From: Absicoccus porci
GTDB lineage: Bacteria; Bacillota_I; Bacilli_A; Erysipelotrichales; Erysipelotrichaceae
Reading direction: 5' to 3'
DNA: 64,000 nt
Assembly (NCBI RefSeq): GCF_003725415.1
Contig: NZ_RJQC01000001.1
Location: 798,196 to 862,195, forward strand
Below are positions 45,010 to 60,563 of this stretch, piece by piece. Each line of letters begins with the position of its first letter. Position 1 is the first letter of the stretch. Under the pieces are notes generated by a model, which saw nothing but the letters and a program-made list of their open reading frames with translations, was not told the origin of the DNA and made no database searches. A program made the position numbers and the translations under genes.

Positions 45010-46905
45010 TTAGGAATTTGGTTCTATCGAATGTATAAACATGCATCGCATAGCATTCAAAACGGCAAGGATCATAACGCCTACATCCGCAAAAATAGCT
45101 AACCACATATTGGCAAGACCAAACGCACTTAGAATTAGGCATAGTACTTTAACACCAATCGCAAACCAAATATTTTCCTTTACAAGACGTAAACATTTTC
45201 GGGAAATATGAATAGCCGTCGCTAATTTTAATGGATCATCATCCATCAATACGACATCAGCCGCTTCAATAGCTGCATCACTTCCCATGGCACCCATAGC
45301 GACACCAATATCCGCACGAGATAAGACGGGTGCATCATTGATACCATCGCCTACAAAAGCCAAACGATCATTTTCTTTTGCTTTGTTTTGTAGTAAATTT
45401 TCTACTTTTTTGACTTTATCTTGTGGTAATAATTCACTATAGACATTCTGAATGCCTATTTCTTCTGCAACGCGTTGGGCCACTTTTTGTGAGTCACCCG
45501 TCAGCATCACAACATCGGTAATGCCATTTTTTCGTAATTCCGAAATTGCTTGTTTTGTATGCGGTTTGATCACATCGGAAATATGGATATGACCAGCATA
45601 TACTCCATCAATTGCGATATGAATAATGGTTCCTGCATCTTTACAATCTTGCCAACAAATACCCATTGCATCCATCATTTTAGCGTTTCCAACACAAACA
45701 AGTTTGCCATTGACCATGGCTTGCATGCCTTGTCCAGCTATTTCCTTTGCATCCGAAATTACACAATCATCATCCTCATTTGGATAGGCTTTCTTTAAAG
45801 AATTCGCAATAGGATGAGTCGAATACCGTTCCACATGGGCAGCCATATGAAGCAATTCATCCGCAGAAATTTTTTCTGGATGGATATTTGTGACTTCAAA
45901 TACACCTTTGGTCAATGTACCTGTTTTATCAAATACGACCGTCTTAATTTCTGATAAGATCTCTAAATAATTAGACCCTTTGACCAAAATGCCTTCATGA
46001 CTAGCTGCACCGATTCCGGCAAAGAAACTCAATGGAATACTGATAACTAAAGCACATGGACAACTTATAACTAAAAAGGTCAAGGCACGATACAAGAAGG
46101 TTCCCCATTGGGCTTGTGTATGCATCAAACATTGAATAAGCGGCGGAATAAATGCTAATGCGATCGCGGAATATACAACAATTGGTGTATAAACACGAGC
46201 AAATTTTGTAATAAAATTTTCCGAATGTGATTTATGGGAACTCGCGTCTTCAATCAATTCCAGCACTTTCGCAACGGTTGAATCTTCAAATGCTTTCGTC
46301 GTGCAAATTTTTAAAACCCCATCCATATTGATACAACCACTAATGACTTCATCGCCTTGGTGTACCGAACGAGGTAAAGATTCACCTGTCAATGCAGCTG
46401 TATCCAAAGATGCTTTTCCATCCAAAACAACTCCATCAATGGGAATCTTTTCGCCTGTTTTCACAACTATGGTTGATCCAATTTCGACATCATCCGGATC
46501 CACTTGTTCTAAATGTCCATCTTGTTCTATATTGGCGTATTCGGGTGCAATATCCATTAGATCCGTAATATTTTTACGACTTTTGCCAACGGCATAGGAT
46601 TGAAACCACTCTCCTATTTGATAAAACAACATAACCGCAATGGCTTCGGTATAGTCACCATTTTCACTAATGGCTAGAGCCATAGCACCTACGGTTGCGA
46701 TTGCCATCAAAAGACACTCATCAAACGGTTGTCGATGGATAATCCCTTTGATAGCTTTCCATAAAATATCATATCCAATGAGCAGATAAGGAATCATGTA
46801 CAGGACAAAACGTATCCATCCAGAAGCAGGTACAAAGTGCAGAAAAATCATCAATCCGGCGGAAACCAGGATACGAATTAAATTTTTCTTTTGTTTTTTG
46901 TTCAT
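45010..46905 (-). CDS. Heavy-metal P1B-type ATPase (Zn/Cd/Pb efflux)
   Basis: A 631-aa P-type ATPase. Membrane CPC in VISCPCALVIS, TGES actuator motif, DKTGTLTKG phosphorylation site, HP in ERYSTHPIANS, and GDGINDAP hinge are all present; the spacing and CPC place it in the ZntA/CadA group. The N-terminal metal-binding domain is missing from this protein and instead encoded separately just upstream (overlap ATGA at 46902-46905). The divergent ArsR-type regulator agrees with zinc or cadmium export; substrate is inferred. Confidence 0.92.
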   Translation of the reverse strand: MNKKQKKNLIRILVSAGLMIFLHFVPASGWIRFVLYMIPYLLIGYDILWKAIKGIIHRQPFDECLLMAIATVGAMALAISENGDYTEAIAVMLFYQIGEWFQSYAVGKSRKNITDLMDIAPEYANIEQDGHLEQVDPDDVEIGSTIVVKTGEKIPIDGVVLDGKASLDTAALTGESLPRSVHQGDEVISGCINMDGVLKICTTKAFEDSTVAKVLELIEDASSHKSHSENFITKFARVYTPIVVYSAIALAFIPPLIQCLMHTQAQWGTFLYRALTFLVISCPCALVISIPLSFFAGIGAASHEGILVKGSNYLEILSEIKTVVFDKTGTLTKGVFEVTNIHPEKISADELLHMAAHVERYSTHPIANSLKKAYPNEDDDCVISDAKEIAGQGMQAMVNGKLVCVGNAKMMDAMGICWQDCKDAGTIIHIAIDGVYAGHIHISDVIKPHTKQAISELRKNGITDVVMLTGDSQKVAQRVAEEIGIQNVYSELLPQDKVKKVENLLQNKAKENDRLAFVGDGINDAPVLSRADIGVAMGAMGSDAAIEAADVVLMDDDPLKLATAIHISRKCLRLVKENIWFAIGVKVLCLILSAFGLANMWLAIFADVGVMILAVLNAMRCMFIHSIEPNS

Positions 46906-47120
46906 AGGAAGATCTCGCAATCGTCTTCCACACGTTTACAATTCTTTCGCACTTGTTCCATCACTGTTTTTGGTTCTACACCATCTTCAAATTCAACTTT
47001 CATTTTTAACATCATAAAGTTAACAGTCGCATCTTTTACACCTTCAGTAGCTTTGGCGGCTTGTTCCATTTTATTGGCACAATTGGCACAATCAACATCA
47101 ATTTTGTAGCTTTTTTTCAT
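46902..47120 (-). CDS. Stand-alone heavy-metal-associated (HMA) domain protein
   Basis: A 72-aa HMA domain with the CXXC motif DCANCANKME near the N-terminus and the ferredoxin-like fold (VKDATVNFMMLKMKVEFE). The first Asp before Cys (DCANC) is common in zinc/cadmium pumps rather than copper ones. It probably delivers metal to, or acts as the detached regulatory domain of, the ATPase whose ATG overlaps its stop. Start at 47120 with AAAGGATG upstream; another ATG lies three codons earlier. Confidence 0.88.
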   Translation of the reverse strand: MKKSYKIDVDCANCANKMEQAAKATEGVKDATVNFMMLKMKVEFEDGVEPKTVMEQVRKNCKRVEDDCEIFL

Positions 47121-47261: not shown

Positions 47262-47636
47262 ATGACGAAAACATTGCCTCATCATCATCAGGAAAACGAA
47301 CAAGAAATTATTGAACATATTCCAAGTCCAGAAACAATTAATACAGTTGCTGCTGCCATGAAACAATTAGGTGATCCCACGCGACTACGTATCTTTTGGT
47401 TTCTTTGTCATGCACAGGAATGTGTGATTAATATTGCCGCCGCTGTTGATATGTCCAGTCCAGCGGTTTCCCATCATTTACGTTTATTAAAAGATGCCGG
47501 TTTGATCACAAGTGAAAGGCATGGTAAAGAAATGTATTATAAAGCAGCCGATTCTGAACTTGTAGATACCTTACATCATGTCATCGAAAAAGTCGCAAAA
47601 GTATCTTGTCCATCCAATGGAGAAAAAAACCGGTAA
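47262..47636 (+). CDS. ArsR/SmtB-family metal-sensing repressor
   Basis: A 124-aa winged-helix repressor. After a His/Glu-rich N-terminus (LPHHHQENEQE) comes KQLGDPTRLRIFWFL and the recognition helix MSSPAVSHHLRLLKDAGLI. The Cys in CHAQECVIN and the N-terminal histidines are possible metal ligands, as in CadC/ZiaR. AAGGAGA precedes the ATG. It is divergent from the HMA-ATPase genes. Its stop codon lies at the exact edge of the accessory region. Confidence 0.9.
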   Translation: MTKTLPHHHQENEQEIIEHIPSPETINTVAAAMKQLGDPTRLRIFWFLCHAQECVINIAAAVDMSSPAVSHHLRLLKDAGLITSERHGKEMYYKAADSELVDTLHHVIEKVAKVSCPSNGEKNR

Positions 47637-47999: not shown

Positions 48000-48269
48000 T
48001 ATCAATCCACAAAAAAAAGATTCATATGGCAAATGTTCCTTTCTAACATCTCAGAAAGTCGTGACAGTCTAATCGTCCATGTACCTATCGTCAGAAGAAA
48101 CTGTTCCTTTCAATGAGCTGCAGCAAAGAAAGCCGAAAGAAATGACGCACATGCCTTCATCCAGACAATTGAAATACTGGAAGACAAAGGGTTAATTGTG
48201 AGCAGAGTAGATCAAAAGATTCCGTCCAAAGTCGAATACAGTCTCAGCAAAAAATTTAGGATTGTATGA
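48000..48269 (+). pseudogene. HxlR-type regulator remnant
   Basis: The frame 48165-48269 reads TIEILEDKGLIVSRVDQK then IPSKVEYSLSKKF and a stop, the recognisable second half of an HxlR winged helix (family pattern LE.DGLI.R......P..VEYSLT). The preceding ELQ portion (PFNELQQRK, near 48106-48130) lies in another frame, so at least one frameshift has inactivated it. It sits directly upstream of the hydrogenase and may once have regulated it. Confidence 0.6.
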
Positions 48270-48442
48270 TCTTCACTGGAAATATAGGAAATGAGTACCT
48301 TCTCTTTAACTAGAAAATACAGAAACCTGCCTGCAGCAGAAGGTTAAGGTACGATAACAACAGACGAGTGTAGTAACTGGAAAACACGATTCGCTAATTT
48401 GTATACGTGAACATCTCAATCGTACTGAAGAAAGAGGCAAGT

Positions 48443-50098
48443 ATGACAAAACACCTTTCACCGGATATCCGGGTACCAATCGATCCGGACAATCCCTCAA
48501 TTGAACGACATGAAGATCTCTGTATCCGCTGTGGCAAATGCCGTGACGTGTGCAGAGATGAGATTTCAGTCCTGACCTATTATGATCTATCCAAGACCAA
48601 CGATGTGCCAATCTGTGTCCATTGTGGACAATGCGCAAATGTCTGCCCTGTGAATTCAATTACCGAGAAGAGCGAAGTTGATACTCTGAAAGCGGCGATT
48701 GCTGATTCAGAAAAGCTTGTGATTGTCTCTACCTCACCATCTGTCCGTGTTTCCATCGGTGAGGGGTTCGGGGAGGATCCAGGCACATTTTCCGAAGGAA
48801 AGATGGTTGCCTTGCTTCGAGCCCTTGGCTTCGACATTGTACTGGACACAGACTTTGCAGCGGATATGACCATTGTCGAAGAAGCTTCGGAGCTGCTCTC
48901 ACGTGTGACGAAGAAGAGTGCACCACTACCACAGTTCACATCGTGCTGCCCGGCCTGGGTAAAGTTTGTAGAAACCTACTATCCAGATCTTCTGCCAAAC
49001 ATTTCTTCAGCAAAGAGTCCGATTGGTATGCAAGGACCGACCATCAAGTCCTGGTATGCAAAGAAACAGGGTATCGATCCGAAAACAATCATGAACGTAT
49101 GTCTGACCCCTTGCACAGCAAAGAAGTTTGAGATTCGCCGCGAGGAAATGAATAGTTCCGCTACTTATTGGAATGAACCCTCTCTCCGTGATATGGATCT
49201 CTGTATCACTACCAGAGAGCTCATTGCCTGGGCAAAGGATGCAGGTATTGATTATAAAGAACTGCCAGAATCGGATTTCGATTCCCTGATGTCTGAGAAG
49301 AGCGGTGCCGGTGTAATCTTCGGTGCAACTGGTGGAGTCATGGAAGCTGCTCTCAGGGCAGCGTATGAATACCTCAATAATAAACCAGCATCGAAGAACC
49401 TTCTCCAACTTTCTGCGGTCCGAGGATATGAGGGAATCCGTACAACTTCCGTGCAACTTACAGACTCGCTTGCTGTTCGTGTTGCGGTAATCTACGGAAC
49501 AGCGAATGTACGGCTTTTCCTTGAAGAACAGAAACTTAGCGACTTTGATTTCATTGAAGTCATGACGTGCCCAGGTGGCTGCATCGGCGGTGGCGGTCAG
49601 CCGAAACACCTTGAAACGGCAGATGATGCGAGAAAAGAACGCATTCAGGGACTGTATGCAAAAGATGCAGCAATGGATGAGAAGGTAAGTACGAGAAACC
49701 AGGAACTGAAAGACTTGTACGAAACTTTCTATGGGAAGCCTCTTTCGAATCTTGCAGAAAAGCTCCTGCACACGTCCTATCACAACAGAGAAAATGACCT
49801 CGGAGAGAGTGCAGAGAAATACCGGAGGTTGAATGAACAGAAGAACTCGGAGAGCGACTATGTGGAAATCACGAAGCCGGGAGAAAAGAAGAGAAAATGG
49901 AAGTGCCGAATCTGCGGTTATGTCTATGAAGGAGAAGAACCACCGAAGGAGTGCCCAGTTTGCCATCAGGGCGCAGAAGTCTTTGATGAGGTGAAGACCT
50001 GGAAATGTAAGGTTTGCGGTTATGTCTGTGAAGGTGTGACACCGCCGGAAGAATGCCCGGTATGCCATCAGGGTTCTGAAGTCTTTGAGGAAATCTGA
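48443..50098 (+). CDS. [FeFe]-hydrogenase with two C-terminal rubredoxin domains
   Basis: A 551-aa iron hydrogenase. Two [4Fe-4S] motifs at C27-C30-C33-C37 and C58-C61-C64-C68, then the H-cluster motifs TSCCPAW (166-172), LTPCTAKKFE (C224) and MTCPGGCIGGGGQP (near 385-400). Two short rubredoxin-type domains end it, each CX2CGYV....CPVCHQG. The motif L2 has Thr-Pro-Cys where the well-known CpI enzyme has Met-Pro-Cys, and L3 has Gly for Asn, features I associate with group B-type enzymes (inference). Start 48443 is preceded by AAAGAGG. The maturation genes hydE, hydF and hydG are not in the window. The gene is visibly richer in G+C than its surroundings, suggesting transfer. Role: H2 production or H2-linked electron sink, or rubredoxin-linked peroxide/oxygen defence. 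Confidence 0.9.
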   Translation: MTKHLSPDIRVPIDPDNPSIERHEDLCIRCGKCRDVCRDEISVLTYYDLSKTNDVPICVHCGQCANVCPVNSITEKSEVDTLKAAIADSEKLVIVSTSPSVRVSIGEGFGEDPGTFSEGKMVALLRALGFDIVLDTDFAADMTIVEEASELLSRVTKKSAPLPQFTSCCPAWVKFVETYYPDLLPNISSAKSPIGMQGPTIKSWYAKKQGIDPKTIMNVCLTPCTAKKFEIRREEMNSSATYWNEPSLRDMDLCITTRELIAWAKDAGIDYKELPESDFDSLMSEKSGAGVIFGATGGVMEAALRAAYEYLNNKPASKNLLQLSAVRGYEGIRTTSVQLTDSLAVRVAVIYGTANVRLFLEEQKLSDFDFIEVMTCPGGCIGGGGQPKHLETADDARKERIQGLYAKDAAMDEKVSTRNQELKDLYETFYGKPLSNLAEKLLHTSYHNRENDLGESAEKYRRLNEQKNSESDYVEITKPGEKKRKWKCRICGYVYEGEEPPKECPVCHQGAEVFDEVKTWKCKVCGYVCEGVTPPEECPVCHQGSEVFEEI

Positions 50099-50234
50099 AA
50101 CAATCTGATAGAAACTCCTTTAGAGAGTGTAAGCTAAACTGTGTAAGTTAGTTAGATGCATACGACTGACTAATGAACACAGTTTTTATTATACACTTAT
50201 GACATGGCTAAAATAAAAAAGAAACTCTGCCGAT

Positions 50235-51397
50235 ATGCAGGATGCTCGCAAAGAAATCTTTGGTCCATTGTTTGAAAGTATGCTTCAGGGAGAAATGGAT
50301 AATCATCTTGGTTATAAATCCAATTCAAAAGAACCCAAATCTACAAAAAACAGAAGAAACGGATCCAATCCTAAAACCTTGAAAACTTCGATAGGCGAAG
50401 TAAAGATCAATACCCCTAGAGATCGGGATGGTTCTTTTGAACCGGTAGTCATTCCGAAAAGAACGAAAGATGTCTCCGAGATTGAAGGAAAGGTATTGGC
50501 CATGTATGCACGCGGCATGTCACAGCGTGACATTTCTGCTACGATCGAAGACATCTACGGATTCAAGATATCCCATGAAATGATTTCAGATATAACGGAT
50601 GCGGTCCTTCCTGAAGTAGAAGAATGGCGAAACAGGCCTCTTAAAAAGTGCTATCCATTCATATTCGTCGATTGTATGTATGTTTCCGTAAGAAATGAAT
50701 ATGAAGCCAAGGAAGAAGCTGTTTATACGATATTGGGCTATGATCTGGAAGGACATAAAAAAATCCTTGGTTTATGGATGGATGTCACAGAATCTAAGAA
50801 CTATTGGATGCAGGTATTTGACGAAATCAAATCCCGAGGCGTTGAAGATATCTTCTTTATTTCCATGGATGGTGTATCCGGACTTGAATCCGGTGCCAAG
50901 GCCATCTTTCCAGTAGTCGTGGTACAGCGGTGCATCGTCCATCTGATTCGCAATTCCATCAGATACGTACCATCAAAGGATTATAAAAAATTCAGGGCCG
51001 ATCTGAAGAAAGTTTATGGTGCTGTATCACTGAAAGCAGCACGAACAGCGTTTGAAAACTTCTGTGATAACTGGAACCAGTATCCCGGTGCCGTTGAAGT
51101 TTGGAAAAGAAACTTTGTCCATGTAGAACAGCTGTTTGATTATGAATCAGCAGTCAGAAAGGTGATGTATACGACAAATGCGATTGAATCCGTTAATTCA
51201 TCATTTCGAAAAGTAACGAAAAAAGGATCGTTTCCAAATCATGAATTTGTATTCAAGCTTCTATATTTACGAGTTTACGAGCAAAGGAACTTCAAAAGAA
51301 ATGGGATAAAGGCCATCTGAATAATTGGTCGATGGTATTGAATCAATTGTTGGTCAACGATCAGTTTAAACATCGTATCGAAAAGTACATTCAATAC
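50235..51397 (+). pseudogene. Inactive IS256-family transposase (copy 1)
   Basis: It matches the transposase of copies 2 and 3 but three defects are visible. The N-terminal about 30 codons are deleted, so the frame begins MQDARKEIFG without its usual start. Near 51270 an extra TTTACGAG duplication shifts the frame, giving VYEQRNFKRN in place of VKELQKKW and an early stop at 51320. Finally copy 2 is inserted just before the original stop codon. DDE residues upstream of the frameshift remain. Not functional unless trans-acting. Confidence 0.9.
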
Positions 51398-51411
51398 GAG
51401 AGTGTAATCTA

Positions 51412-51463
51412 AACTGTGTAAGTTAGTTAGATGCGTACGGCTAACTAATGAACACAGTTTTTA
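51412..51463 (+). terminator. Left-end hairpin upstream of IS256 transposase
   Basis: AACTGTGT with ACACAGTT and, inside, TTAGTTAG with CTAACTAA around a ten-base loop, followed by TTTTTATTAT. It lies between the left end and the transposase start and looks like an intrinsic terminator that would block transcription entering from outside. The same structure is in copy 1 (50137-50188) and copy 3 (55956-56007). Confidence 0.7.
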
Positions 51464-51504
51464 TTATGCCTATCTCATGATATGGTTGAAGGAGAAAAAG
51501 GAAA

Positions 51505-52755
51505 ATGAATGAAATGAGTAAAATTAAAAGAAATCCCGCCGCTGTCAAGATTGCCAATGAAATCCTTAAAGAATATGACTGTGATTCATTAACCGATATG
51601 CAGGATGCTCTCAAAGAAATCTTTGGTCCATTGTTTGAAGGCATGCTTCAGGGGGAAATGGACAATCATCTTGGTTATAAATCCAATTCAAAAGAGCCAA
51701 AATCTACAAAGAACAGAAGAAATGGTTCCAATCCCAAAACTTTAAAAACCACAATGGGAGAAGTAGAAATCAATGCGCCAAGAGACAGGAATGGATCCTT
51801 CGAACCAGTCATTGTTCCCAAACGATCAAAGGATGTTTCCGATATCGAAGGAAAGGTATTATCCATGTATGCACGTGGAATGTCACAACGTGATATCTCA
51901 TCAACGATCGAGGATATTTATGGTTTTAAAGTATCACACGATATGATCTCGGATATAACCAATGCTATCCTTCCGGAAGTGGAAGAATGGCAGAACAGAC
52001 CGCTCAAAAAATGTTACCCATTTGTTTTTGTCGACTGTATGTATGTTTCTGTCAGAAACGATTATGAAGCCAAAGAAGAAGCCGTTTATGTGATTCTTGG
52101 GTATGACCTGCAGGGACAAAAGGAAATTCTTGGTTTGTGGATGGATTCCACGGAATCAAAGAACTACTGGATGCAGGTATTTGATGAGATCAAGGCACGA
52201 GGAGTCGAAGATATCTTTTTCATTTCTATGGATGGCGTATCCGGTCTTGAATCGGGTGCCAAAGCTATTTTCCCCGGAGTTGTCGTACAAAGATGTATCG
52301 TTCATCTGATTCGGAACTCCATCCGATATGTACCAACCAAGGACTACAAAAAATTCACTGCCGATCTTAAAAAAGTATATGGAGCCTCTTCACTAAAAGC
52401 AGCTAAGACTGCGTTCGACACATTCTGCGACAACTGGAAACAATATCCTGGAGCGATCGAAGTATGGAAAAGGAATTTCCTTCATGTAGAACAGCTGTTT
52501 GATTATGGATCTGCTGTTCGAAAAGTCATGTATACGACAAATGCGATCGAATCGGTAAATTCCTCCTTTCGAAAAGTGACGAAAAAAGGGTCATTTCCAA
52601 ATCATGAAGCTGTATTCAAGCTGCTCTATTTACGGGTGAAGGAACTACAGAAAAAATGGGACAAAGGACATTTGAATAATTGGTCGATGGTATTGAATCA
52701 ATTGTTGGTCAACGATCAGTTTAAGGATCGTATCGAAAAGTACATTCAATACTGA
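51505..52755 (+). CDS. IS256-family transposase (copy 2)
   Basis: A 416-aa DDE transposase of the mutator-like IS256 family. Catalytic acids D177 (VDCMY), D243 (SMDGVSGLESG) and E349 (TTNAIESVNSSFRK) fit the family spacing, and the C/D(2)H-type region (CIVHLIRNSIRY) is present. GGAGAAAAAGG precedes the ATG at 51505. It differs from the copy 3 protein by only three residues, so both copies are recent and probably active. Confidence 0.95.
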   Translation: MNEMSKIKRNPAAVKIANEILKEYDCDSLTDMQDALKEIFGPLFEGMLQGEMDNHLGYKSNSKEPKSTKNRRNGSNPKTLKTTMGEVEINAPRDRNGSFEPVIVPKRSKDVSDIEGKVLSMYARGMSQRDISSTIEDIYGFKVSHDMISDITNAILPEVEEWQNRPLKKCYPFVFVDCMYVSVRNDYEAKEEAVYVILGYDLQGQKEILGLWMDSTESKNYWMQVFDEIKARGVEDIFFISMDGVSGLESGAKAIFPGVVVQRCIVHLIRNSIRYVPTKDYKKFTADLKKVYGASSLKAAKTAFDTFCDNWKQYPGAIEVWKRNFLHVEQLFDYGSAVRKVMYTTNAIESVNSSFRKVTKKGSFPNHEAVFKLLYLRVKELQKKWDKGHLNNWSMVLNQLLVNDQFKDRIEKYIQY

Positions 52756-53230
52756 ATCTTGAAATGATATTTATTCCAATTTCCTTGTTTACAATGAGAC
52801 TCCGCCCCTAAGAACCCGAAAAAACGGCCAGTCAAAAAAATCAATTTTCAGCTGGCCGTTTTAAGCATACCTTAGGGTCGATCATTATAAACAAGTTTTC
52901 TCGGCATAAAACATCATTTTAAAAACAAGATCGAGAACTTATCAAAATCGACTATAAAATATTAAATACACACTTTTCTTGACAAACCCTTCAATACTGA
53001 ATCTTGAAATGATATTTATTCCAATTTCCTTGTTTACAATGAGCCTCCGCCCCTAAGAACCTGAAAAAACGGCCAGTCAAAAAAATCAATTTTCAGCTGG
53101 CCGTTTTAAGCGTACATTAGGGTCGCTCATTATAAACAAGTTTTCTCGGCATAAAACATCATTTCAAAACAAGATTTAGAACTTATTAAAATCGATCATA
53201 AAATATTAAATACACACTTTTCTTGACAAC
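52743..53230 (+). repeat. Two adjacent copies of the IS256 3' tail
   Basis: The about 240-bp tail that follows the transposase stop occurs at 52743-52989 (end of copy 2) and again at 52990-53230 (remaining tail of copy 1). Each tail contains the inverted repeat AACGGCCAG / CTGGCCGTT separated by about 20 bases, a probable terminator. The pair is explained by copy 2 inserting into copy 1, not by tandem duplication. No gene lies in 52756-53355. Confidence 0.85.
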
Positions 53231-53236
53231 CCCCCC

Positions 53237-53278
53237 TCTCACACATCTAACTAACTTATATAGTTAAATTCCACTCTC
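53237..53278 (-). mobile_element. Degenerate IS256 left-end remnant
   Basis: On the minus strand GAGAGTGGAATTTAAC followed by TAAGTTAGTTAGATG resembles the IS256 left end at 50123, 51398 and 55942, with several changes. It abuts the right end of copy 1 in the opposite orientation and suggests an earlier deleted copy. Confidence 0.6.
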
Positions 53279-53355
53279 ATTTTCCTTTTATAAAATTGAA
53301 AAAGATTTATTGGATTTTCTGGCAGATGTCTTTTCCCTATTGATTGTCATGTTGA

Positions 53356-54456
53356 TTAAAATTCTGTGGACAAACCATCAGTGGTTCCATAATGAGGTAC
53401 ATACTCTATAGTATATCCACTATAATCTGTTTCATCATTATCAAAATAAACGTCAAGTGTTACCTGTTTGCCTGGAGAAAGGTTATTCGATGAATAATCG
53501 CTATCTCCAGTGTCAATGATATTCCCGTTCTCATCTTTCACATTTACATCAAAGTTAAGCGACTTAAACGTTTTCTGTGTCTTATTAGTAAAAGTAATAA
53601 AATAACTATAATATGGGAATTCTGCATCGCCCTCATTCTTTGCAGTAAACTGAATAGATTTGATAGATTTCTCCAAGTCAGAATTAAGTTGATCTTCATC
53701 AGCTTGAGCACTCTGAGTTGTTTTCGCATCATCTAAAATGTCATCCAAATCATCTTGATATTTATCATCGACTTTTAATCCATAATCATCTACAAAAGAT
53801 TTAATCAACACAGTACGTTTATTATATGCGTTTTCCCATTGTGTAGTGTATGTATAATAATCACTATTATAATAGGCAAGTGATTTTTTACTATCATTTA
53901 AAGCTTCTATATATTGTTTTGCTGCATCCTGTAGTTTTGAATCGTCGAAAGTTTTGTTTTTGAAGGAACCAATGCTATCTAGTTCTGCATCAATCCATTC
54001 TTTAGCAGCATCATCATCGTCAAGCTCTTCATTTTCATCACTATCGGTAATACTCCAACGTTTCTGAAGCCCTTTCTTCAATGCGCGCATAAATTGTCCA
54101 TCTACAGAAAGTTCATATTTACATTTATCCAAATAGTCCTTGGAATCTTTATAATCTCCTAAAGATTTAAATGTACTTTCAGCCTCTTTAAATTCTTCGT
54201 TGTTATATTCTCTGACTGCTTTGTTATATGCTCTAAGATCTGTGGTTGCAAACAATGCAATAACAATGACAATACAAGCAGCAACTAAAACAATGATAAT
54301 ATTTCGTGTTAACTTTTTCTTGTTTTTCGGTTTCTCTGCTTTTTCAGACTGCTCTGGTAAAGGTGGTGTCACATTCTGTTCCTGTTCAGAAACGGAAGTT
54401 TCTGGATCACTTGTTTCTGATTTAATTTGTTCTGTATTCTTTTCTACGTCACTCAT
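53356..54456 (-). CDS. Membrane-anchored protein with TPR-like repeat and FxLYD-type domain
   Basis: A 366-aa protein. Residues 1-50 are a Ser/Glu/Pro-rich cytoplasmic tail, then one membrane helix (about 52-70, IIIVLVAACIVIVIALFAT), a helical region with the Firmicutes-type repeat FKEAESTFKSLGDYKDSKDYLDKC, a helical middle, and a C-terminal beta domain (FITFTNKTQKTFKSLNFDV, VKDENGNIIDTG, LSPGKQVTLDVYF) like FxLYD domains. GGGAGGG precedes the ATG. Function unknown; outside-facing sensing or binding is inferred. It is the only other intact non-IS gene of the accessory region. Confidence 0.85.
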   Translation of the reverse strand: MSDVEKNTEQIKSETSDPETSVSEQEQNVTPPLPEQSEKAEKPKNKKKLTRNIIIVLVAACIVIVIALFATTDLRAYNKAVREYNNEEFKEAESTFKSLGDYKDSKDYLDKCKYELSVDGQFMRALKKGLQKRWSITDSDENEELDDDDAAKEWIDAELDSIGSFKNKTFDDSKLQDAAKQYIEALNDSKKSLAYYNSDYYTYTTQWENAYNKRTVLIKSFVDDYGLKVDDKYQDDLDDILDDAKTTQSAQADEDQLNSDLEKSIKSIQFTAKNEGDAEFPYYSYFITFTNKTQKTFKSLNFDVNVKDENGNIIDTGDSDYSSNNLSPGKQVTLDVYFDNDETDYSGYTIEYVPHYGTTDGLSTEF

Positions 54457-54904
54457 TTTAAATTCCCTCCCAGTAAAAAAATACTTTATATATATTAATT
54501 ATAACTATATTTTAACAAATGACCAAATTGGACTATAAAGTTGCAGAACATTCCATATCAGTGATAATACATAATATCTTTTGAGTTGTTCTCATATTCA
54601 TCCCTCTGTTATAAGGTATTTTGTACGCATAAAAGATGTTTATAATAGATAATATTGCATGAATAAATCAGAAAATTAATTGTTACCAAAGGAAGATGTG
54701 ATTGAGAAAGATTGACTAAGGTAGGATAAAATATTTTCATTAGCTTTACGTATGATAAAATATATTAAATAAACCAAGTTATAATAATTAGGAGATTAAC
54801 TATTAAAAATCAAGCAAAAAGACAAGAATTATAAAAAGACATGACAAAAAGACCTAACAAAAGGTCAATTTTAAAAAATGGTCTAATGGTCTATAAGAAA
54901 ATGG
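54457..54904. other. A+T-rich gap without recognisable gene
   Basis: Sequence between the 366-aa protein and the IS110 remnant. Very A+T-rich. The only structure seen is a short GACCT / AGGTC hairpin with T run on the minus strand near 54850, possibly the IS110 terminator. No ORF with a ribosome site is convincing. Confidence 0.6.
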
Positions 54905-55070
54905 CTACCTCATTTTCTTAGGGTCATAATCAGTATCGTTTTTTTCTAAAAAGAAAATGATACGAATCAGTTTTCTGGCCACATGGGTAAGAGCAACCCG
55001 ATGATGTTTGCCTTCTTCCCGTTTTTTTACGATAGTACTCGTAAAAAATAGAATCATGGATAATGAGAGA
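54905..55070 (-). pseudogene. IS110-family transposase C-terminal fragment
   Basis: The minus strand reads KREEGKHHRVALTHVARK then LIRIIFFLEKND and a stop at 54905, matching the conserved C-terminus of IS110-type transposases (EGK.HK.AL...A.KL.RII). Just before, the matching sequence (DSIFYEYYRK) is in another frame, so one base is missing or added in a run of seven A. The rest of the gene is removed at the IS3 left end at 55071. Confidence 0.65.
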
Positions 55071-55118
55071 GGGGGTGCGGACAAATTCTTGGACCGACGA
55101 TGACAGGGAGAAAGAAAA

Positions 55119-55940
55119 ATGTCGTTTACGGAGGAAGAGAAAAAGAAAGCACTTCAATTGTATGATGAAACTGGATCGATAGCTAAGGTAATTCATAAAC
55201 TCGGATATCCAAGCAGACAAAATATGTATACTTGGATCAAGAATCGAGATATCGAAAAGAAACGCAAGAAATATGATGCTACAGATTCACCAGGGCACAG
55301 GCGTCATCCATCATTAGAAATAAAACTTGAAATACTTCACCGTTGCTTTGAAGAAGGAGAAGACATAAAATCAATATCAGAAGAATACGGATATTCAAGG
55401 ACGAGTATTTATAGTTGGAGAAAGCTGTATTTATCTGGAGGTGCAGCGGCTATAATGAATAAAAAGAAAGATTTGCCAAGAGGAACTTTGATCGTTAATG
55501 AAGATGCTGATAAGGGTTCCGATAATAATATTGAACTGGCAGCTAAGATAAGAGATCTGGAGCTAGAAAACGATATATTAAAACAGACAATAGAAATATT
55601 AAAAAAAGATCAGGGCATCGATCTGTTAAGACTGAAAAACACAGAGAAGACAATGATAATCGATGCCCTAAGGAATAAATATGCATTGTCACTGCTTCTT
55701 GCAAAACTTCAGATATCCAAGAGCAGTTACTTTTATCAGCACAAGATACAACAATCACCTTATAAATATGAGGCAATAAAGATAAAAATTATTGAATTAT
55801 TCAAAGAAAACAAGGGAAGATATGGTTATAGAAGGATTCATGCACTACTGAGAAAAGATAATATCATTGTATCTGAAAAAATAGTAAGACAAATCATGAA
55901 AGATAATAATCTAGTAGTAAAAGCCAGAAAACATAAGAAG
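55119..55940 (+). pseudogene. IS3-family transposase, 5' part
   Basis: 274 codons: a helix-turn-helix near the start (SIAKVIHKLGYPSRQNMYTW), a second one (SISEEYGYSRTSIYSWRK), a leucine-zipper-like stretch (KIRDLELENDILKQTIEIL) and the start of the B region (ISKSSYFYQH, GRYGYRRIHALL). The frame is then interrupted at ...RKHKK by the IS256 copy. Joined to 59997-60563 it reads through as one uninterrupted 461-codon frame, so OrfA and OrfB are already fused without frameshifting. Confidence 0.9.
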
Positions 55941-55941
55941 T

Positions 55942-57532
55942 GAGAGTGTAATCTAAACTGTGTAAGTTAGTTAGATGCGTACGGCTAACTAATGAACACA
56001 GTTTTTATTATGCCTATCTCATGATATGGTTGAAGGAGAAAAAGGAAAATGAATGAAATGAGTAAAATTAAAAGAAATCCCGCCGCTGTCAAGATTGCCA
56101 ATGAAATCCTTAAAGAATATGACTGTGATTCATTAGCCGATATGCAGGATGCTCTCAAAGAAATCTTTGGTCCATTGTTTGAAGGCATGCTTCAGGGGGA
56201 AATGGACAATCATCTTGGTTATAAATCCAATTCAAAAGAGCCAAAATCTACAAAGAACAGAAGAAATGGTTCCAATCCCAAAACTTTAAAAACCACAATG
56301 GGAGAAGTAGAAATCAATGCGCCAAGAGACAGGAATGGATCCTTCGAACCAGTCATTGTTCCCAAACGATCAAAGGATGTTTCCGATATCGAAGGAAAGG
56401 TATTATCCATGTATGCACGTGGAATGTCACAACGTGATATCTCATCAACGATCGAGGATATTTATGGTTTTAAAGTATCACACGATATGATCTCGGATAT
56501 AACCAATGCTATCCTTCCCGAAGTGGAAGAATGGCAGAACAGACCGCTCAAAAAATGTTACCCATTTGTTTTTGTCGACTGTATGTATGTTTCTGTCAGA
56601 AACGATTATGAAGCCAAAGAAGAAGCTGTTTATGTGATTCTTGGGTATGACCTGCAGGGACAAAAGGAAATTCTTGGTTTGTGGATGGATTCCACGGAAT
56701 CAAAGAACTACTGGATGCAGGTATTTGATGAGATCAAGGCACGAGGAGTCGAAGATATCTTTTTCATTTCTATGGATGGCGTATCCGGTCTTGAATCGGG
56801 TGCCAAAGCTATTTTCCCCGGAGTTGTCGTACAAAGATGTATCGTTCATCTGATTCGGAACTCCATCCGATATGTACCAACTAAGGACTACAAAAAATTC
56901 ACATCCGATCTTAAAAAAGTATATGGAGCCTCTTCACTAAAAGCAGCTAAGACTGCGTTCGACACATTCTGCGACAACTGGAAACAATATCCTGGAGCGA
57001 TCGAAGTATGGAAAAGGAATTTCCTTCATGTAGAACAGCTGTTTGATTATGGATCTGCTGTTCGAAAAGTTATGTATACGACAAATGCGATCGAATCGGT
57101 AAATTCCTCCTTTCGAAAAGTGACGAAAAAAGGGTCATTTCCAAATCATGAAGCCGTATTCAAGCTGCTCTATTTACGGGTGAAAGAACTACAGAAAAAA
57201 TGGGAGAAAGGACATCTGAATAATTGGTCGATGGTATTGAATCAATTGTTGGTCAACGATCAGTTTAAGGATCGTATCGAAAAGTACATTCAATACTGAA
57301 TCTTGAAATGATATATATTCCAATTTCCTTGTTTACAATGAGCCTCCGCCCCTAAGAACCTGAAAAAACGGCCAGTCAAAAAAATCAATTTTCAGCTGGC
57401 CGTTTTAAGCGTACATTAGGGTCGCTCATTATAAACAAGTTTTCTCGGCATAAAACATCATTTCAAAACAAGATTTAGAACTTATTAAAATCGATCATAA
57501 AATATTAAATACACACTTTTCTTGACAAACCC
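55942..57532 (+). mobile_element. Intact IS256-family element (copy 3)
   Basis: 1,591 bp, flanked by the 8-bp duplication TAAGAAGT (55934-55941 and 57533-57540). Same ends as copy 2. It sits in the IS3 transposase gene, one base away from the IS21 left end. 57300-57532 is the tail with the GGCCAG / CTGGCC hairpin; no gene lies there. Confidence 0.93.
56049..57299 (+). CDS. IS256-family transposase (copy 3)
   Basis: 416 aa and all catalytic acids (D177, D243, E349) as in copy 2. It differs at three visible positions (T30A, a change of A to S in KFTADL, D to E in KKWDKG). Same ribosome site and upstream hairpin. Very recent transposition is inferred from near identity and intact target duplications. 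Confidence 0.95.
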   Translation: MNEMSKIKRNPAAVKIANEILKEYDCDSLADMQDALKEIFGPLFEGMLQGEMDNHLGYKSNSKEPKSTKNRRNGSNPKTLKTTMGEVEINAPRDRNGSFEPVIVPKRSKDVSDIEGKVLSMYARGMSQRDISSTIEDIYGFKVSHDMISDITNAILPEVEEWQNRPLKKCYPFVFVDCMYVSVRNDYEAKEEAVYVILGYDLQGQKEILGLWMDSTESKNYWMQVFDEIKARGVEDIFFISMDGVSGLESGAKAIFPGVVVQRCIVHLIRNSIRYVPTKDYKKFTSDLKKVYGASSLKAAKTAFDTFCDNWKQYPGAIEVWKRNFLHVEQLFDYGSAVRKVMYTTNAIESVNSSFRKVTKKGSFPNHEAVFKLLYLRVKELQKKWEKGHLNNWSMVLNQLLVNDQFKDRIEKYIQY

Positions 57533-57668
57533 TAAGAAGTATGTATTTGTCAACTGAAAACTGACCAACTTCGCAATTGAAAACTGATCAACTACTCACT
57601 CTCGAATCGAAGATATTTCATCATATTTCAGGATGAATATCTTCGATTTTTTCTGAATACTTTAATAG

Positions 57669-58427
57669 CTATTGATTGGTGGTTGAACCATTTTTTGTAT
57701 TCCAATTCTTTGTTGCCAGAGTTCTATAACTATCTCCAGACATGTCAATCAGGTAAGACATGTATGCCAGTCTGTCAATGATTGCTCCCGTTAATACCTG
57801 GTCTTTAAAAACTTCATTCCACCGATCAAATGTCAGATTGGATGTGATGATCATGGCTCCTTTTTCATTTCGGCTGGATAACAGATTGAACAATATCTCT
57901 CCTCGTTCTTGGTCGAATGTGCAGTACCCCAGCTCGTCCAGTATGACCAGGTCATAGCTTTCAAATTTTCTTTTGTACATCGTTATTTGATTTTGATTCA
58001 TCGCTTCTTTCAGTTCTATCAATAGGGTCGGTATGCTTACAAACAATACTTTCTTGCCCTGCTGACATGCTTCTGTTCCCAATGCGATGCTCAGTGCTGT
58101 TTTGCCTGTTCCCGGATTGCCAATCAATATGATATTCTGCTTATTGTCGATGAATTCAAGCGTCTCCAGTTCGTGAATTTTTTGTCGGATCTCTATGCTG
58201 AGATGTTCTCTTTGATAATCCTGCAAGATCATCTGATAGGGAAACTTTGCCCGTCTTATCCTCGTTTTTATGCTGTTTCTGGTTCGGAGCTCCACTTCAT
58301 TTTTTAACAGTTCTTCCAAAAAATCTTCAAAGCTCATGTCTTTTAATCGTGCCTCTTTGGCACATTCTTCATAATTGTTACGAATGAATGGAAGACGTAG
58401 TATATATGCTGATTCTTTAATGGACAT
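57669..58427 (-). CDS. istB: IS21 helper ATPase IstB
   Basis: A 252-aa AAA+ ATPase that chooses targets for IstA. Walker A GNPGTGKTALS, Walker B DLVILDELG, and a later arginine-containing AIIDRLAYMS. GGAGG lies eight bases before the ATG at 58427, which falls inside the end of istA (overlap 11 bp). The frame is open for 34 codons upstream but within istA. Confidence 0.92.
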   Translation of the reverse strand: MSIKESAYILRLPFIRNNYEECAKEARLKDMSFEDFLEELLKNEVELRTRNSIKTRIRRAKFPYQMILQDYQREHLSIEIRQKIHELETLEFIDNKQNIILIGNPGTGKTALSIALGTEACQQGKKVLFVSIPTLLIELKEAMNQNQITMYKRKFESYDLVILDELGYCTFDQERGEILFNLLSSRNEKGAMIITSNLTFDRWNEVFKDQVLTGAIIDRLAYMSYLIDMSGDSYRTLATKNWNTKNGSTTNQ

Positions 58428-59868
58428 ATTGATTTCCTCCAATGAACATTTCACATAATTCGTTGATCTGTTCCATCGTCTTATCATCGACAGCCTGCTG
58501 TATCTTTGCCTCCTGTTGTCTGGGTTCAAGTGCTTCGAGCAATGTTTTCAGATCACTGTCGGAATATCTTCTAAGTATTTCTATAAATACTTTGGGTTTT
58601 TCTTTATAATATTTATTGAACATATTTTTTAGTTCAGGTTCGCTCTTCAATGCCAGAGAATTCGAGAGCGAACCAGGTTTTCGGGAAAACGTGTGTAGAT
58701 AGTGCCGAATGTCTATGCGCGTTTTTCCTTTCCCGGCAATACGGGCATGCCGTGCAACGATCTCCTGCTTATACATGATGATCAGATCATTTGGATACAG
58801 CTTTGCGATCACCCATTTTTGACACAGATCCTCCGGAACGGAATAACAGTTATTGTCGATATGAACAAATGAATATTTATCCACTCTGTTTTTTGTGATA
58901 CGGGCCGTCTCATATCTTGGCCGGTATGGTTTAAGATGTTTCTTTTCTTCTTCGATATTCGAATTCTTATTGATCTCAACCAGTTTTTCCTGCAGATAGT
59001 CACATGCATTCTCAAATGTATCAAACGCATATTTATAAGCGAATACTTTATTTCGTATCCATTTGACAGCACTTTCAACGGTCCCTTTTTCATTGCCGCT
59101 GAAACAGTTGGTCACATTGATGGTGAAATCATAATAGAGTGCCAGCTTTATAAGCTGTTCATTCAGTTGCTTTTCATTTTTTCCAATAAAACGGGCGACC
59201 ACATTCTTCATATTGTCATAGACACCTTCCTTGAATGATCCACCAAGCATCTCGAAGAAACGTACATGTGAATCCAGGAAGACATCCATCTTCGAATTGC
59301 GATACAGATAGGCCCAGCGAAATCCGGATGCAGGACAGACCAGGACGGCCAGGTATCCTTTTATATTCCTGCCATCGATAATCAGTCTTACTTCGCCAAA
59401 ATCGTATTCAAATCGGTCACAGTAATCATATTTCTGTTTAATAAAAGCTTCTTTTTTTTCATCTCTAATGACTCGCAGCCGTTTTCGTATCGTTGTTTCA
59501 CCAATATCAAATCCCTGATTGATCAACAGCTGGTAGATCTGTCTGTCATTCAAGGCCTGTTTATGACCCGGTCCCAGTAGTCTGGTCTTGTTTTCTTCAT
59601 CGGCAAGAATCTTGCGCAATTGAATATCCATTTCTTCAGAATACTTTCTAGCAGTCCGTTTTGATGAATCATAGGAAGGATCATCAATTAAAGTTTCAAT
59701 AACTTTCCGTGTATCCACATTTGGATCCAGTTTCAGCAATTCATCCAAATTACTGCAATAGGATTTCCAGTACTTTCGAATCGTATTTCTGGAAACACCA
59801 AATGTTTTGGATATCCGGTTATCGCTCCACCCCTCTTTCTTTAACCGAATAATTTCATACTTTTGCAT
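58417..59868 (-). CDS. istA: IS21 transposase IstA
   Basis: A 483-aa DDE transposase. An N-terminal helix-turn-helix (GWSDNRISKTFGVSRNTIRKYW), then a second DNA-binding region, and a catalytic core with FEYDFGEVRLI, DNMKNVVARF and GNEKGTVESAVKW giving D, D and E. AAGGAG lies 12 bases before the ATG at 59868; another in-frame ATG at 59880 abuts that site. Looks intact. Confidence 0.9.
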   Translation of the reverse strand: MQKYEIIRLKKEGWSDNRISKTFGVSRNTIRKYWKSYCSNLDELLKLDPNVDTRKVIETLIDDPSYDSSKRTARKYSEEMDIQLRKILADEENKTRLLGPGHKQALNDRQIYQLLINQGFDIGETTIRKRLRVIRDEKKEAFIKQKYDYCDRFEYDFGEVRLIIDGRNIKGYLAVLVCPASGFRWAYLYRNSKMDVFLDSHVRFFEMLGGSFKEGVYDNMKNVVARFIGKNEKQLNEQLIKLALYYDFTINVTNCFSGNEKGTVESAVKWIRNKVFAYKYAFDTFENACDYLQEKLVEINKNSNIEEEKKHLKPYRPRYETARITKNRVDKYSFVHIDNNCYSVPEDLCQKWVIAKLYPNDLIIMYKQEIVARHARIAGKGKTRIDIRHYLHTFSRKPGSLSNSLALKSEPELKNMFNKYYKEKPKVFIEILRRYSDSDLKTLLEALEPRQQEAKIQQAVDDKTMEQINELCEMFIGGNQYVH

Positions 59869-59996
59869 AATGGTTTTCATCTCCTTTTTTTGCCTCCTTT
59901 TGATTATAAAAACCATAAAGAAGCATAATAAAAAAACTGGTCAATTTTGAATTGCGATTTGTCCAAAAATTGATCAGTTTTAAATTACAATATACA

Positions 59997-60563
59997 AAGT
60001 ATAGCTCCTATCAAGGAGAAATAAGTGAAGCGGCAGAGAATATTATCAATAGAGATTTTCATTCAGAAAAACCCAATGAAAGGGTGCTGACAGATATCAC
60101 AGAATTCTCAATACCTGCAGGAAAAGTATATCTTTCACCAATAGTAGACTGTTTTGATGGAATGATACCAAGTTGGACCGTAAGTACCAACCCTAATGCA
60201 GATTTGGTCAATAGCATGTTGGATGATTATCATTCTAAGCTAAAAGAAGATGAGAAACCAATAGTTCATAGCGATCGGGGGTGTCATTACCGATGGCCTG
60301 GATGGATTAATAGAATGAATAAGTATGGATATACCAGAAGCATGTCTAAGAAAGGTTGCTCACCGGATAATTCGGCATGTGAAGGATTCTTTGGCAGGAT
60401 GAAGAATGAGATGTTTTATGGCCGAAATTTTGTTGGTGTAACAATTGAAACGTTTGTAGAGATTATCAATGATTATATCATATGGTACAATACCAAAAGA
60501 ATAAAGGCATCGTTGGGCTATTTGAGCCCTATGGAGTACAGGCAAAGTCTGGGACTAATTTGA
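59997..60563 (+). pseudogene. IS3-family transposase, 3' part
   Basis: The rest of the split transposase (YSSYQGEISEAAENI onward, 187 codons). All three catalytic acids of the DDE core are here: LTDITEF, VDCFDGM and ACEGFFGRMK, ending with YNTKRIKASLGYLSPMEYR. Its start is lost because of the insertions, so it is not expressed as an active protein. Confidence 0.9.

Follow-up and report, generated by a model that had tools for sequence, protein, structure and literature searches.

A horizontally acquired, rubredoxin-tailed [FeFe]-hydrogenase of Absicoccus porci and a putative HydG-independent route of H-cluster maturation

Introduction

The CO and CN- ligands of the H-cluster of [FeFe]-hydrogenases are attributed to HydG, which normally gives an Fe(CO)2(CN)-cysteine unit to HydE. 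Among the Hyp proteins of [NiFe]-hydrogenase maturation, carbamoyl phosphate is the substrate from which HypEF forms cyanide, and HypCD is the carrier of Fe(CN)2CO. In vitro, HydA reaches ~1% activation with HydF that was produced in the presence of HydE alone, and more when CO or CN- is added, and in a survey from 2022 HydG was not detected in several acetogens (PMC9431212). In 2012, two closely linked copies of NifHEN-like proteins from Coprococcus catus and further Firmicutes were tied to hydrogenase maturation proteins, in a paper where one sentence proposes a role in metallocluster assembly (PMC3464626). Among the hydrogenases themselves, HydR of Clostridium perfringens is a HydA-Rub-Rbr-Rub fusion that works as an H2-dependent H2O2 reductase with an extreme uptake bias; HydR and CpII, the uptake [FeFe]-hydrogenase of C. 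pasteurianum, are both uptake-biased and carry the sequence TPC in the L2 motif (PMC11926857). Here we describe a [FeFe]-hydrogenase gene of Absicoccus porci, referred to as hydA, together with the maturation genes of the same genome.

Results and Discussion

HydA as a group A [FeFe]-hydrogenase bearing two rubredoxin-like domains

In the window, the whole 64-kb stretch of DNA analyzed, hydA occupies positions 48443-50098 (+) as an intact frame of 551 codons, which starts with an ATG at 48443, shared as start Met by its relatives, and ends with the stop at 50098. The encoded protein of 551 amino acids scored 447.7 bits against the group A [FeFe]-hydrogenase model TIGR02512 (curated cutoff 405.95). 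Pfam searches identified Fe_hyd_lg_C (280 bits), Fe_hyd_SSU (61 bits), two Fer4 motifs and two stretches of RUBY_RBDX (PF21349, 76.5 bits), a short rubrerythrin-type rubredoxin domain. The two [4Fe-4S] motifs are CIRCGKCRDVC (residues 27-37; 48521-48553, +) and CVHCGQCANVCP (CVHCGQCANVC, residues 58-68; 48614-48646, +), and their cysteines are invariant in the alignment of relatives. Every H-cluster ligand is found in the motifs L1 (TSCCPAW; 48938-48958, +), L2 (TPCTAKKFE, identical to L2 of C. perfringens HydR; 49106-49132, +) and L3 (EVMTCPGGCIGGGGQP; 49556-49603, +), as read from the sequence and the same alignment. A fused Fe-hydrogenase small-subunit domain (PF02256) lies at 49622-49789 (+). 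The tail consists of rubredoxin-like domain 1 (49898-49984, +; pLDDT about 69-88) and domain 2 (50000-50086, +; pLDDT about 79-88), which form a tandem direct repeat of 75% identity (49898-49989 and 50000-50091). Thus the coordinates, H-cluster motifs, two [4Fe-4S] motifs and two C-terminal rubredoxin domains given in an earlier note on this DNA were borne out by Pfam, TIGR02512 and motif reading. That note had also singled out TPC for MPC in L2. The residue is there but is no anomaly, as TPC is common to the whole clade, CpII and HydR (PMC11926857), and is therefore normal for a HydA of this type.

The assignment to group A is shared by TIGR02512, the tree and the fold. The solved structures nearest to HydA by sequence and fold are HydA1 of bifurcating complexes, the Desulfovibrio enzyme and CpI. 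The AlphaFold model is mediocre (overall pLDDT 63), since the alignment is shallow, and was used solely as fold support. A non-hydrogenase of the Nar1/IOP1 type was rejected, given the catalytic H-cluster motifs, the small-subunit domain and best matches in sequence and fold to true hydrogenases. No sensor or kinase domain was detected in HydA by Pfam.

Foreign origin and flanks of hydA

The G+C content of hydA is 0.481, against 0.374 for the window, and its GC3 is 0.475, against 0.24-0.35 for host genes in the window. The three closest HydA relatives (L016-L018; 87, 85 and 81% identity) are from MAGs labelled Lachnospiraceae, where the hydA copies have a GC3 of 0.71-0.77. They group with HydA at 100% SH-aLRT, within a wider clade of 23 sequences supported at 99%. 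At the DNA level, hydA and L016 share 77% identity, and the similarity runs from ~20 bp upstream of the start codon to a point just past the stop, with flanks that differ from those of the Lachnospiraceae-labelled relatives. As the similarity is confined to the gene, a single gene has moved. As judged from base composition and phylogeny, hydA is a horizontally acquired single gene, the donor of which was probably a relative of higher G+C, and hydA has since become partly adapted. Both the G+C-richness and the foreign origin of hydA, implied in the earlier note, are upheld.

The suggestion that the gene is flanked by IS elements holds on the downstream side, where an IS256-family array (50123-53265, +) starts 25 bp past the hydA stop. 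It comprises a 70-bp end repeat at 50123, a degenerate transposase (50235-51320), a second copy (51398-52755; transposase frame 51505-52755) and an inverted end at 53265. On the upstream side it does not hold: no IS was found close to hydA, the neighbors being genes for a ZntA-type metal ATPase (45010-46920, -) and arsR (47262-47636, +). In the gap between arsR and hydA, a broken frame (48110-48270, +) resembles by eye the end of an HxlR-type regulator. The wider IS-rich stretch (50123-60563) contains three IS256-family copies, two of which are near-identical and lie 4544 bp apart, and transposase-like genes at 55119-55943, 57669-59916 and 59952-60563. A plasmid search with the hydA region gave no match. 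The open reading frames of the window include no maturases, as had been noticed before, and in a search for hyd maturases or conserved neighbors among 80 HydA relatives, hydA was found mostly to stand alone.

Relation to HydR and possible electron partners

Three designs were observed in the clade of HydA: the H-domain only (L023-L025), the H-domain followed by two or four rubredoxin-like domains (L016-L020), and the order H-domain, rubredoxin, diiron rubrerythrin, rubredoxin (L021 and L027, and L028 with one rubredoxin domain detected). By architecture, HydR is the closest characterized relative of HydA. Both have two [4Fe-4S] clusters, a CpII-type H-domain, the L2 motif TPCTAKKFE and two rubredoxin-like domains, and the rubrerythrin-fused L021, L027 and L028 fall in the wider clade of HydA. 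Unlike HydR, HydA and L016-L020 lack the diiron rubrerythrin domain (PF02915) in Pfam searches, and the two rubredoxin domains of HydA stand in tandem. CpII shares the TPC motif and the uptake-type H-domain but has no reported rubredoxin tails (PMC11926857). On these sequence comparisons the hydrogenase is a foreign HydR/CpII-type variant with an unusual tail. In the L017 MAG (G317), which may be incomplete, HydA bears four rubredoxin-like domains; HydF is encoded as well, but HydE, HydG and NifD were not found.

As HydA is without the diiron domain, electrons would have to exit to separate partners. Most likely HydA would oxidize H2 and pass single electrons via its pair of [4Fe-4S] clusters, and via the Fe(Cys)4 centers of both tails, to rubredoxin-dependent reductases that are separate proteins, with a stand-alone rubrerythrin as the first candidate. 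A rubrerythrin with its own rubredoxin tail is encoded on contig C9, a partner that the earlier note had asked to be looked for elsewhere in the genome, and a flavin-reductase-rubredoxin (RBX) fusion is encoded on contig C1. The proposed route from H2 through rubredoxin to rubrerythrin is plausible, as the clade includes HydA-Rub-Rbr-Rub fusions and HydR provides a precedent (PMC11926857). The simplest reading is that the electron exit was kept and that the acceptor is now a separate protein, the direction and the partner being our inference. HydA would then be a loose-partner version of HydR, by which H2 could feed oxidative-stress defense, against peroxide or O2, through separable rubredoxin tails.

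Maturation genes in the A. porci genome

The genome (2.22 Mb, 13 contigs, 98% complete), with the window on contig C1, was searched with profiles for the maturases. HydE (556 bits) and HydF (524 bits) were both identified above curated cutoffs at C1:94829-97044. HydG was not found in the genome, the sole signal being a cross-match to HydE of 63 bits (cutoff 312). The earlier note had called for hydE, hydF and hydG to be looked for, and had named the absence of all three as telling against its reading: two are thus present, and hydG is missing. The genes hydE and hydF, 750 kb distant from hydA, head an operon that continues with nifH1D1K1-hypF-C-D-E-nifH2D2K2, on the same strand and closely packed, and ends near C1:107985. 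As hydA and the operon are on the same contig, mixing of organisms is unlikely. No HypA or HypB is encoded in the operon, and no [NiFe]-hydrogenase large subunit (PF00374) was found in the genome. A second [FeFe]-hydrogenase, of the group B monomeric type (607 bits), is encoded at L097:7384-8904 (about C1:496384-497904, -), and must also mature without HydG.

As read from the sequence, both cluster cysteines are conserved in NifH1 and in NifH2, and HypD retains CGTHTHE and HypE a C-terminal Cys, features needed for cyanide transfer. NifH1 falls below the nitrogenase equivalog (306 bits; nifH cutoff 394), and NifD1 and NifK1, which match NifE at 62 and 28 bits (cutoff 505), are likewise not nitrogenase equivalogs. 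The solved sequences nearest to the NifDK-like proteins in profile searches are NifE, NifD and BchB. Two to three cysteines are retained in their D members and one to two in their K members, an arrangement similar to that of a human-microbiome nitrogenase-like group described in PMC3464626. The two linked copies and the association with hydrogenase maturation proteins are also shared with the NifHEN-like proteins of that paper, the searched text of which is silent on the absence of HydG, on an adjacent hydA and on mutual exclusion. Exclusion or replacement of HydG and the Hyp content were not found described in our literature search, subscription journals and preprints lying outside it; on a route that does without HydG, it turned up only PMC3464626, for the association, and PMC9431212, for acetogens in which HydG went undetected.

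With canonical HydE-HydF-HydG maturation, the genome thus has in common HydE and HydF above curated cutoffs, and differs in having no HydG and in combining two NifHDK sets and HypCDEF in one operon with HydE and HydF. Compared with [NiFe] systems, all four HypCDEF proteins are present with their key motifs, but here they cluster with [FeFe] genes in a genome with no [NiFe]-hydrogenase.

Distribution of HydG and the nif/hyp set

In the family, 116 genomes were searched: the same 14 yielded HydE and HydF, and 10 yielded HydG. Strong matches to NifD1 were obtained in four family genomes, which are exactly those with HydF and without HydG when one 65%-complete genome is left out (Fisher p = 0.005 among the 14 genomes, whose relatedness makes them non-independent). 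In the order as a whole (316 genomes), five further NifD1 genomes were found, all in another family. None of the nine NifD1 genomes of the order has HydG, and in eight of the nine tested the [NiFe] large subunit is absent, while the ninth has an Ech-like cluster. Three NifD1 genomes and three HydG genomes were reached through named loci. The former, namely G316 (the genome of the closest relative, L016), Megasphaera sp. NM10 and Veillonellaceae bacterium Marseille-P2974, have NifD1, NifD2, HypD, HydE and HydF, with no HydG over the cutoff; in the latter, Veillonella seminalis, Pelotomaculum and the L019 genome, HydG is present and NifD absent. The last genome search used a composite query of the HydF C-terminus, HydE, HypD, NifD1 and NifD2, with matches assigned by query position. 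In total, HydG is absent from 12 of 12 NifD1 genomes, and NifD1 was found in none of the 13 HydG genomes.

In the family sample (G001-G115), ~86 of 100 genomes with a [FeFe]-hydrogenase catalytic domain have no recognizable HydE, HydF or HydG, and a missing maturase alone is therefore no evidence for a nif/hyp route. The group A copies examined from such genomes keep all H-cluster motifs, and the nif/hyp set, NifD and HypD included, was found in none of six HydA genomes without the three maturases (G001, G002, G006, G009, G019 and G044). A very divergent NifD/K/H-like trio (19-47% identity) was observed in G005 (L146:9494-12647), with no hydrogenase maturation genes nearby.

The gene content of the nif/hyp cluster is nearly constant across genomes, while the order of the modules varies, and no other enzyme gene is constant in it. 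A group A hydA lies immediately 5' of nifH1 in four genomes (G134, G135, G146 and G147), and a regulator of the TM1266 family, which belongs to iron-only hydrogenase systems, is present in the cluster in three. The trees of HydE and HydF mix HydG-plus with HydG-minus genomes and reject a single HydG-minus clade, the well-supported branches forcing at least three and at least four changes, respectively (quick trees with some long branches). As the HydG-minus genomes do not form one clade, the replacement would be a repeated one. HydE and HydF seem to be retained as HydG and the nif/hyp set take each other's place, which is the pattern expected if both do the same job.

Proposed maturation route and alternatives

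We propose that the products of nifH1D1K1-hypF-C-D-E-nifH2D2K2 act together with HydE and HydF, so that NifHDK1, NifHDK2 and HypCDEF would replace HydG upstream of HydE and HydF, a swap that would have occurred several times among gut Bacillota. In this scheme, iron would receive its CN- and CO from HypCDEF. HypCD makes Fe(CN)2CO and not the Fe(CO)2CN unit of HydG, and further chemistry is therefore required. The Fe-CO/CN synthon, which HydE normally receives from HydG, would be made, remodeled or handed over by the pair of NifH/NifDK-like reductases: one could yield CO by reducing a one-carbon compound, or rebalance the ligands, and the other could be a scaffold passing the unit to HydE/HydF. 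The alternative route appears well supported by comparative genomics. To this proposal, and to the reading of HydA as an acquired HydR/CpII-like enzyme that oxidizes H2 toward separate partners and has its H-cluster built in this way without HydG, we assign a probability of roughly 0.6 each. If real, the route would be a second natural way of building the H-cluster, joining the metallocofactor worlds of nitrogenase, [NiFe]- and [FeFe]-hydrogenases, with a concrete operon in which it can be tested.

The operon might instead build another metallocofactor, for a nitrogenase-like enzyme, while the hydrogenases are weakly matured by HydE and HydF with stray CO and cyanide. The ~1% activation by HydE and HydF, raised by CO or CN- (PMC9431212), would fit such a scheme, as would a genus that has HydE, HydF and NifHDK2 without HypD. 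We nevertheless consider it unlikely, in view of the hydA genes directly upstream of the operon, the exact mutual exclusion with HydG across 25 genomes, the TM1266 regulator within the cluster and the lack of any other constant enzyme gene. That HydG was merely overlooked, through gaps in the assemblies or because its sequence is too divergent for detection, is highly improbable. An assembly of 13 contigs at 98% completeness leaves a little room for it, and atypical HydG-like proteins occur in some clostridial acetogens (PMC9431212), but the gene is absent in 12 of 12 genomes, including the single-contig G134 and a 2.65 Mb contig of G329. Moreover, the same searches mostly pick up HydE as a weak cross-match, and hydG usually lies beside hydE/hydF in HydG genomes, a neighborhood that was fully read here.

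For the hydrogenase itself, rubredoxins carry electrons in both directions, and the tails could bring electrons in for H2 evolution from an NAD(P)H:rubredoxin reductase, or the protein could be a sensor of H2 or redox state. Enzymes of the M2e type that have a Cys motif at the C-terminus are putative sensors (PMC6984386). Either role is possible though rather doubtful, as the L2 motif and the clade match the uptake-biased HydR and CpII (PMC11926857), related proteins bear the peroxide-reducing diiron domain, and HydA lacks a sensor or kinase domain. A transferred enzyme that the host route is unable to mature, and that is non-functional here, would be in keeping with a foreign gene beside IS elements with no partner gene nearby. 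This seems quite unlikely, since the frame is open with all ligands retained and the genome of the closest relative has the same HydG-less set.

A variation on the operon was observed in genus g32 of the same family (L217-L221), where HydE, HydF, NifHDK2 and a FecCD-type ABC importer with a substrate-binding protein are encoded in one cluster, with no HydG, HypD or NifD1. As HypD is absent from this genus, Hyp is not needed everywhere. The genus points to NifHDK2 as the shared core and to more than one means of obtaining the ligands. The importer might serve in the uptake of iron or of a precursor.
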